Source: Geobacter sp. AOG2
Lineage (GTDB): Bacteria; Desulfobacterota; Desulfuromonadia; Geobacterales; Pseudopelobacteraceae
Assembly: GCF_019972295.1 (NCBI RefSeq)
Contig: NZ_BLJA01000001.1
Location: 2,008,117 to 2,072,116, forward strand
Reading direction: 5' to 3'
DNA: 64,000 bases
Shown: piece after piece, positions 14,568 through 43,876 of the stretch
Layout of the letters: each line of letters opens with the position of its first letter
Numbering within the stretch: the first letter of the stretch is position 1
Made by a program: the position numbers and the translations under genes
Notes under the pieces: model-generated
Told to the model about the DNA's origin: nothing
What the model saw: the letters and a program-made list of their open reading frames with translations, nothing else
Database searches by the model: none

Positions 14568-14597
14568 ATACTAGCCAAAGAGCGGGAACAAAGTCAA
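14568..14597 (-). promoter_or_regulatory. Candidate sigma-70 promoter for ispG
   Basis: On the minus strand TTGACT (14592-14597) and TAGTAT (14568-14573) are spaced by 18 bases. The predicted transcript start falls within a few bases of the ispG ATG. Confidence 0.45.
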
Positions 14598-14640
14598 GGA
14601 AGACGAGAGGATCAGACGTCACTGCCACCATATTCATCGG

Positions 14641-14707
14641 GTAGGAGGCGGGATTACTCCCGCCGTCCTCCCACACCACCGTGCGTACGGTTCCGTACAC
14701 GGCGGTT
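14641..14707 (-). ncRNA. Group II intron domains V and VI
   Basis: Domain V is a 33-base hairpin whose 13-base arm ACCGCCGTGTACG pairs with CGTACGCACGGTGGT across a GAAC loop. Domain VI follows at once: GGAGG and CTCC close a stem containing GGCGGGA/TCCCGCC, with an unpaired A in CTAC that would be the branch point. Confidence 0.75.
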
Positions 14708-14711
14708 CACG

Positions 14712-14801
14712 TTAGTGCTGAAAGCTGTGAAACCGGGTGAGGAGTGAGAGTAGTCCCAGTTTCGTCAAGTAGGATGTATCAAAGGCTTGGTTCATATATG
14801 C
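14712..14801 (-). pseudogene. Probable C-terminal tail of the intron-encoded protein
   Basis: The frame ending in TAA at 14712, a few bases before domain V, reads TSYLTKLGLLSLLTRFHSFQH. The L-GL-SL--R pattern and position match the extreme C-terminus of many group II intron reverse transcriptases. The frame stays open to 15059, but the upstream part is unrecognised and starts inside a terminator hairpin, so only the tail is called. Confidence 0.45.
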
Positions 14802-15026
14802 GAGGCTCCTGAATTCCACCAGGGGCCTCATTTTGCACCCGTCGTCGATTTGGTAGACCAGCGTCAAGAACTTGGAGCCTTTATTCCTCCGGCAGATTTC
14901 GGCGATGCCTATCCGGAACAGATCATAGAAGCTACATCGACATTCTTGATCGCTTCCAGCTATTTCAGGCAAGGATTTGAATGTCAGGTATTGGTTGCAC
15001 ATAACAGCGGTGGGCGTACAGGCGAC

Positions 15027-15074
15027 AATAAAAAAGCGTGCTTGACCATAATCGGCCAAGCACGCTTTTTTATT
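15027..15074 (-). terminator. Perfect 18-bp stem terminator after the repeat lipoprotein gene
   Basis: Arms of 18 bases (AATAAAAAAGCGTGCTTG and its complement) surround a 12-base loop. A and T tracts on both sides make it bidirectional. It lies 45 bp past the lipoprotein stop codon. Confidence 0.88.
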
Positions 15075-15118
15075 GCAACGATAGTTCCGGAGTTCTCTCT
15101 CTTCACGACCCTACCGGG

Positions 15119-16153
15119 CTACTTCAGGGTGAAAATTGACACGATCGCACCCTCATACGTCCCGATGCCAAGATCGGTCCTGGTGGCGCCGGTCCAGGAA
15201 CACGGACGAGTTACCGTGCCGTTGTCATAGAATCCATAGGCGGTCGCCGTGCCGCCGGATACGGTAATCACCTCGGCGGCGGCCTCATGCGTACCATCAT
15301 TGGCCAGATCCGTCTTGGTGGTTCCCGTCCAGAAACAGGGAATGCTTGTGGTGCCGTTATAATAGCTTCCCGAGGTATAGACCGTACCGCCCGATACGGC
15401 AATCGAGGCTGCAGAGGCCTCATTGGTGCCGTCGCCGGGCAGGTCGGTTTTTGTTGTGCCGGCCCAATAGCAGGGAACCCTTTTCGTGCCGTCGTAATAG
15501 CTTCCGGCGGTGTAAACCGTGCCGCCTGAAACGGTTATTGCAGTTACAAGAGCACTCGTACCCGTGCCGACCGGCAGGTCGGTCTTTGTCGTGCCAGCCC
15601 AGTAGCACGAGATGTTTGTTGTCCCATTATAATAAAAGCCGGCAGTGTAAACCGTGCCGTTGGCAACATAAATTGCAGAGGCATCGGCGCGATGTGTGCC
15701 GTCGCCCGCCAAGTCGGTCCGGGTTGTGCCGGTCCAGTAGCAGGGGATGTCTTTGGTCCCATCGTTATAATAGCCGCTCGTGTAAACCGTGCCGTTGGCG
15801 ACAAAAATCCCTGTGGCGACGGCTGTGTGTGTACCGTCCCCCGCCAGGTCTATCTTTGTCGTCCCGACCCAGTAGCAGGGGATGGTTACCCCTGCGTCGT
15901 TTTTATACACCCCAGCCGTGTAAACCGTGCCGTTGACCTTTTGTGCGGCAAGCGCCATGCTGGAGTGGGTCCCATCGCCCAGATCGGTTCTGGTCGTCCC
16001 GACCCAGTAGCAGGCGACGTCCGTGGTGCCGTTACTATTGTAACCAGCCGCAACAGTCTCGCTTACCGAAGCGGTACTGCCGCCACCATCATTGCCGCAC
16101 CCGGCAATAATAAAAACAACGAGAGCAAGCAGAAAACTTTTCAAATTCAGCAT
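15119..16153 (-). CDS. Lipoprotein with seven beta-propeller-like repeats
   Basis: The 344-residue protein begins with a lipoprotein signal peptide (LALVVFIIAGC, lipobox IAG/C), so it should be anchored in the outer membrane or periplasm. The remainder is about seven repeats of 45 residues with the pattern AGxYxxGTxxxxCYWxGTTKTDLxGDGTH...IxVxxGTVYT. Seven four-stranded units suggest a seven-bladed beta-propeller. Each unit keeps one cysteine before an aromatic-Trp pair. Function is unknown. The gene lies inside a collapsed group II intron and has its own terminator, and the repeats are similar enough at DNA level to recombine. Confidence 0.75.
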   Translation of the reverse strand: MLNLKSFLLALVVFIIAGCGNDGGGSTASVSETVAAGYNSNGTTDVACYWVGTTRTDLGDGTHSSMALAAQKVNGTVYTAGVYKNDAGVTIPCYWVGTTKIDLAGDGTHTAVATGIFVANGTVYTSGYYNDGTKDIPCYWTGTTRTDLAGDGTHRADASAIYVANGTVYTAGFYYNGTTNISCYWAGTTKTDLPVGTGTSALVTAITVSGGTVYTAGSYYDGTKRVPCYWAGTTKTDLPGDGTNEASAASIAVSGGTVYTSGSYYNGTTSIPCFWTGTTKTDLANDGTHEAAAEVITVSGGTATAYGFYDNGTVTRPCSWTGATRTDLGIGTYEGAIVSIFTLK

Positions 16154-16252
16154 ACAGACTCCTTCCTCATTTTTAGCTGCTCTTCTCGGGAAGAGGAGAT
16201 GAGGTATCTGTAACCTGTCAAAACAAACATTTCAACAATAATTTCATTATAT

Positions 16253-16423
16253 TTAAAATATTTCGACATCATTGAACCATAAGCCGAGAAAGATTCGCTT
16301 CCAGGGACGGTCAACAGCACTTTTATCCTGGTTGACCGTGAGTTTCAGGCGCGTTTCAAAGAAGTTTGTGATGGACTCCATAACTCGTTCCGCTGAACGC
16401 CGGGTTCTGACATAGATGTTGCA
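16253..16423 (-). pseudogene. Group II intron reverse transcriptase fragment
   Basis: Fifty-six codons starting CNIYVRTRRSAERVMESI and continuing through DKSAVDRPWKRIFLG match the region just after the catalytic YADD of group II intron reverse transcriptases (thumb side of the palm). The YADD itself is absent: the upstream sequence in frame reads DGGNR and belongs to the domain I-like RNA part. The frame ends at a stop in AT-rich sequence. It is a decayed fragment without activity. Confidence 0.8.
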
Positions 16424-16531
16424 ACGGTTCCCACCATCAGGGGCCGTAGAGGACTTGCACCTCCAAGTCTTGATCCAGTCACCACAACTGAATCAATGGG
16501 GCTTACGCCCCACGCGCCCTACCGGGCGCAC
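16424..16531 (-). ncRNA. Group II intron 5' end / domain I fragment
   Basis: The minus strand starts with GTGCGCCCGGTAGGGCG, continues through GGGGCGTAAGCCCC (hairpin) and GACTTGGAGGTGCAAGTCC (hairpin), and reaches GGTGGGAACCGT, then fuses directly to the reverse transcriptase fragment. These are typical 5' intron elements. Confidence 0.65.
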
Positions 16532-16534
16532 AAC

Positions 16535-16563
16535 AAAAAGACCCGCCGGTTGCCCGACGGGTC
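16535..16563 (-). terminator. Intrinsic terminator of glyA
   Basis: GACCCGTCGG and CCGGCGGGTC form the stem with a GCAA loop, followed by TTTTT on the minus strand. The group II intron 5' end begins three bases after the T tract. Confidence 0.85.
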
Positions 16564-16590
16564 CTGACCCCAAAAGTGGCGGAATCTTTC

Positions 16591-43754: not shown

Positions 43755-43788
43755 AAAAAAAGAGCCTCACCGCGCATGCAGCAAGGCC
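43755..43788 (-). terminator. Attenuator terminator in the pyrR leader
   Basis: On the minus strand GCCTTGC and GTGAGGC close a stem with GT pairs around a TGCATGCGCG interior, followed by seven T residues. It lies between the PyrR-binding element and pyrR. Confidence 0.75.
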
Positions 43789-43823
43789 CTTCCATATATG
43801 ATTCGCGTCAGTCATCTGTGTAA

Positions 43824-43850
43824 CCCTTGCCAACCTCTCGGGCTGGATTA
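43824..43850 (-). promoter_or_regulatory. PyrR-binding element (anti-antiterminator loop)
   Basis: The minus-strand sequence TAATCCAGCCCGAGAGGTTG, continuing GCAAGGG, matches the conserved PyrR recognition loop (AUCC...GAGAGG-UU-GCAAGG) of pyr attenuators. Confidence 0.8.
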
Positions 43851-43876
43851 AAAGGTAGTCGATATGTCGTTGGATG

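Follow-up and report, generated by a model that had tools for sequence, protein, structure and literature searches.

Within the 64,000-nucleotide stretch of the Geobacter sp. AOG2 genome analyzed in this work (the window), a complete lipoprotein gene lies among pieces of a group II intron, which raises the questions of how the two came together, whether the pieces derive from one intron or from two, and whether the arrangement can still move. The pieces form a minus-strand block of 1,896 bp at 16531-14636, sited between glyA (17838-16591) and ispG (ORF listed at 14700-13513, with a probable true start at about 14556); both gene names were assigned by eye from the ORF translations. With a probability of roughly 93%, the block is a decayed group IIC intron that was inserted 3' of the glyA terminator and that holds a foreign lipoprotein gene. 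Its features and immediate surroundings are as follows:

14568-14597, minus strand: promoter-like site upstream of ispG and downstream of the intron (promoter scan; conserved block)
14636-14707, minus strand: domains V and VI with the 3' end ...CCGAT (RF00029; fold z -5.5)
about 14712-14833, minus strand: C-terminal tail of the reverse transcriptase (RT), intron nt 1748 onwards (nucleotide identity; tblastn E 8e-7)
14832-14912, minus strand: ISL3-family transposase fragment (70% at the amino acid level over 27 columns versus the transposase L042, E 1.4e-5)
14834-16276, minus strand: foreign insert of 1,443 bp replacing intron nt 1426-1747 (alignment to full-length relatives)
about 15026-15076, no strand assigned: terminator-like inverted repeat, perfect over 23 bp, following the lipoprotein gene (fold -36.2 kcal/mol, z -8.9)
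15119-16153, minus strand: intact lipoprotein gene, 344 aa (ORF; repeats; predicted beta-propeller)
16277-16423 (16277 approximate), minus strand: RT fragment, intron nt 1280-1425 (84-87% nucleotide identity; TIGR04416)
16423-16424, minus strand: junction J1, a near-blunt deletion joining intron nt 108 to 1280 (alignment to the full-length introns L005, L004, and L003)
16423-16531, minus strand: intron 5' end, the first 108-109 nt of domain I (identity to family genomes; empty site in congeners)
16538-16565, minus strand: glyA intrinsic terminator hairpin, the 5' exon and insertion target (terminator scan, fold, and hairpin context)

The ends of the block emerge from a comparison with congeners. 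In L035, L036, and L037, glyA and ispG adjoin and precisely 16531-14636 is missing; since their sequence is continuous across the site, the intron ends can be set at 16531 and 14636. The flanks of the block, rejoined as CTTTTTGTT followed by GAATATGG, compare with CTTTTTATTGAATGTGG in L035, and a target duplication is absent; the spliced exon junction would be TTTTTGTT + GAATATGG. L038 and L039 are uninformative for this comparison because their sequence upstream of ispG differs. In these two congeners glyA is not beside ispG, and similarity breaks off immediately upstream of the conserved ispG promoter block, within the intergenic gap that also received the intron.

The block begins with GTGCG at 16531 and ends with GAT, in agreement with the GUGYG and AY ends of group II introns. 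Its 5' part (16531-16424) shares 85% identity with nt 1-108 of full-length introns of the same family, and up to 91% with 5' ends found in family genomes. At the 3' end, RF00029 (Intron_gpII, domains V/VI) matches 14707-14636 on the minus strand with 46.9 bits (gathering score 40; E 4.5e-6 for the window). This match is the single one in the 3.92-Mb genome, and 74 nt of the region are 100% identical to copies in other genomes. Between the two ends, the first RT fragment begins at the codon directly after YADD and matches model positions 218-268 of TIGR04416 (NCBIfam; E 2e-7), and the frame of the C-terminal tail that precedes domain V is disturbed by small frameshifting insertions. A Pfam search of both RT fragments gave no match, probably owing to their short length. 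A preliminary description made from the letters of the window had already placed both intron ends and both RT pieces correctly; of the Rfam group II models that it named, RF00029 matched above the gathering score, but the D1-D4 segments are absent from the window.

The insert that separates the two RT fragments contains the intact same-strand lipoprotein gene with its own terminator, as had also been described. The ORF has the lipobox LVVFIIAGCG and the Shine-Dalgarno-like sequence GGAAGGAG, and its product carries seven CYWxGTT-type repeats at a spacing of exactly 45 residues. Structure prediction gave an all-beta protein (mean pLDDT of 80), the PDB matches of which are mostly beta-propellers (lectins, TolB, and S9 peptidases) with modest TM-scores, and the lipoprotein is accordingly predicted to form a beta-propeller. 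Rfam matches to Thr_leader and OrzO-P at 14988-15074 were discarded; they score below gathering and overlie the 23-bp terminator hairpin. No same-strand promoter was recognized upstream of the gene in a promoter scan. The lipoprotein gene is read as a free-standing gene inside the relic, presumably an expressed one.

A search for the origin of the lipoprotein gene covered 141 genomes of the order, the genome contigs, and viral contigs and yielded only weak or distant relatives, and a close copy of the lipoprotein was found in none of the 76 family genomes. The nearest relatives, L046 (58% identity) and L047 (44%), come from distant MAGs. That the source was not found counts against the main account. 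Lipoprotein relatives occur here and there in distant MAGs and hardly at all in the host order, and the contig G129:C14 has several adjacent lipoprotein matches, one of them with stops. The likeness of L046 and L047 to the window protein resides in CYW-containing repeats of about 45 aa over an equal alignable length; unlike the window gene, they have no group II intron around them, as judged from an Rfam search of their examined flanks.

A trace of a possible route is given by the ISL3 fragment, which the preliminary description had missed. The ORF of the related transposase L042 belongs to PF01610 (E 2.5e-81). The fragment lies in the same insert as the lipoprotein gene, directly beside the 3' intron junction, where it ends mid-gene, and this hints at an IS-linked entry. 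A variant of the main account goes further and regards the lipoprotein gene as the passenger of an ISL3 element, the remains of which are seen at 14912-14832 and the rest of which was deleted later. This variant is possible, although doubtful: in place of the complete DDE transposase and terminal repeats of an ISL3 insertion sequence, about 27 transposase residues are left, neither IS ends nor flanking repeats such as a target duplication were seen at the insert, and a profile search of this genome found no member of the ISL3 family.

Much less probable is that two separate intron remnants came to flank a resident lipoprotein gene through recombination, an alternative raised in the preliminary description. 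The ends are indeed parted by an unrelated gene, and they differ in their identity to relatives, with 85% for the 5' part against 92% for the 3' part (91-92% at the nucleotide level for 14833-14636 versus full-length introns). However, domains V and VI are the most conserved part of such introns, so a higher identity at the 3' end is to be expected. Moreover, the 5' part, the RT fragment, the RT tail, and domains V/VI correspond to non-overlapping, collinear parts of one intron. Nucleotides 1-108, 109-255, and 1699-1896 of the block equal nt 1-108, 1280-1425, and 1748-1944 of L005 (1,944 nt), and the same order is seen against L004 (1,943 nt); L003 is a further full-length relative of the same family. 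Also speaking against two remnants is the direct adjacency of glyA and ispG in congeners, where the lipoprotein gene is missing. Because full-length relatives hold the pieces in order and the congener site is empty, 16531-14636 derives from one intron, in which the lipoprotein gene came to lie, and not from two joined remnants.

Matches to the 5' query were obtained in 34 of the 76 family genomes, and to the 3' query in 37; among the plasmid records listed, only the intron ends were matched. Four genomes (G003, G047, G053, and G001) possess about seven to nine or more IIC intron copies, many of them at contig ends. In this family the intron seems to have been active recently as a multi-copy element and to be a source of assembly breaks.

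The class of the original element follows from its relatives and from its target. The 467-aa RT of the full-length relatives, tested on L005, possesses RVT_1 and GIIM domains and lacks an endonuclease domain; it scores 421 bits against TIGR04416, and its best solved relative is the GsI-IIC RT (6ar1; 487 bits over residues 49-465). The RT type was judged on L005, the window copy having retained RT fragments only. Class C introns are marked by insertion after terminators (PMC4424553; PMC3522654). In all 29 distinct insertion sites tested, that of the window included, the intron is directly preceded by a terminator-like hairpin, in most cases one with a T run; such a hairpin is contained in 43 of 200 random 50-mers from the window, and the mean folding energy of the sites was -22.6 kcal/mol versus -8.5 for shuffled sequences. 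At glyA, this hairpin is conserved in L035-L037, and the intron starts 6-7 nt past the stem. Given the RT type of the relatives and the insertion after terminators, the original element is assigned to the group IIC introns, with the glyA terminator as its target. It shares with group IIC introns such as GsI-IIC and B.h.I1 and with L003/L004/L005 both end sequences, the endonuclease-less RT, a site 3' of an intrinsic terminator, and the absence of a target duplication. What sets it apart from them is the loss of nt 109-1279 and 1426-1747 and the presence of a foreign gene inside.

Two lesions account for this difference. The first deleted 1,171 nt (nt 109-1279), its two sides sharing no more than 1 nt at the junction, and removed most of domain I, domains II/III, and the N-terminal half of the RT including YADD. 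The D1D4-3 (nt 128-302) and D1D4-1 (nt 349-433) segments that are recognized by Rfam in the relatives fall into this lesion, and RF02001 and RF01998 segments are absent from the window copy by both Rfam search and alignment. In the second lesion, 322 nt of the RT (nt 1426-1747) were exchanged for the 1,443-bp insert. Since both intron ends are intact, the loss appears to have been internal and later, rather than a 5' truncation during reverse transcription. Compared with three full-length copies, the RT fragment shows 12-14 synonymous and 4-5 non-synonymous codon differences, so that most of its divergence probably arose in the active lineage; because the differences are mostly synonymous, the collapse looks comparatively recent. 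On the main account, a full-length, terminator-targeting IIC intron would have entered the gap that separates the glyA terminator from the ispG promoter region, immediately 3' of the terminator. The 1,171-nt deletion would then have stripped it of the parts named above, and a second rearrangement would have replaced the 322 nt with the 1.44-kb segment bearing the lipoprotein gene, terminator, and ISL3 scrap. We infer this order of events, and also that the insert is of illegitimate or IS-linked origin.

Splicing requires domain I and a maturase. Domains V/VI of the window copy still fold, but the Rfam-recognized core is gone, and the complete domains I-III of an active group II intron are not there. 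No other RT was found in the genome with the RVT_1 profile, tblastn with the RT of a full-length relative returned only the two window fragments, and a second domain V, a second 5' end, or any other intron copy was not found in this genome; full-length copies, which the preliminary description had suggested looking for elsewhere in it, exist in other genomes of the family. Very probably, the intron can no longer splice or move. The least tenable reading, also proposed at the outset, is a non-autonomous cargo intron whose folded domains I, V, and VI would let a helper maturase mobilize the lipoprotein gene in trans: although both ends and domains V/VI are intact and maturases are established to act in trans on some introns, domain I is reduced to 108 nt, the D1-D4 elements of the relatives are deleted, no other RT and only a single copy were found in the genome, and a close lipoprotein copy is lacking in the 76 family genomes. 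Neither several copies with the same cargo nor a helper RT, the marks of a cargo-bearing mobile element, were detected. With domain I nearly gone, no RT found, and a single copy, a mobile helper-dependent intron is very unlikely, and splicing or mobilization of the relic, together with the lipoprotein gene, by a IIC maturase entering from elsewhere is hardly to be expected.

Elsewhere in the window, the PyrR binding-site RNA model RF00515 gave a sub-threshold match at 43755-43858 on the minus strand (45.4 bits, gathering score 54, E 0.005). It is followed directly by ORFs resembling PyrR (43723-43187) and aspartate carbamoyltransferase (43027-42095), both named by eye, and is plausibly a pyrimidine attenuator.

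For the host genes, the insertion is expected to be neutral, since the promoter-like block of ispG and the terminator stem of glyA, T run included, are both intact despite the insertion; the ispG block is conserved in all five congeners, and the intron left the site untouched. Bacterial group II copies are mostly truncated or inactivated (PMC4424553), and fragmented ones have been surveyed (PMC3522654). The window copy resembles them in being inactivated and in missing a full-length counterpart in the same genome; unlike them, it keeps both ends with a complete unrelated gene in between. It is a well-resolved further case of a known phenomenon, with a whole gene inside, and it is of use as a detailed illustration of how an intron decays and a gene is gained, rather than as a new mechanism. 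The locus records, close to base level, how an intron that targets terminators can make room between two housekeeping genes, in a slot now occupied by a foreign gene.
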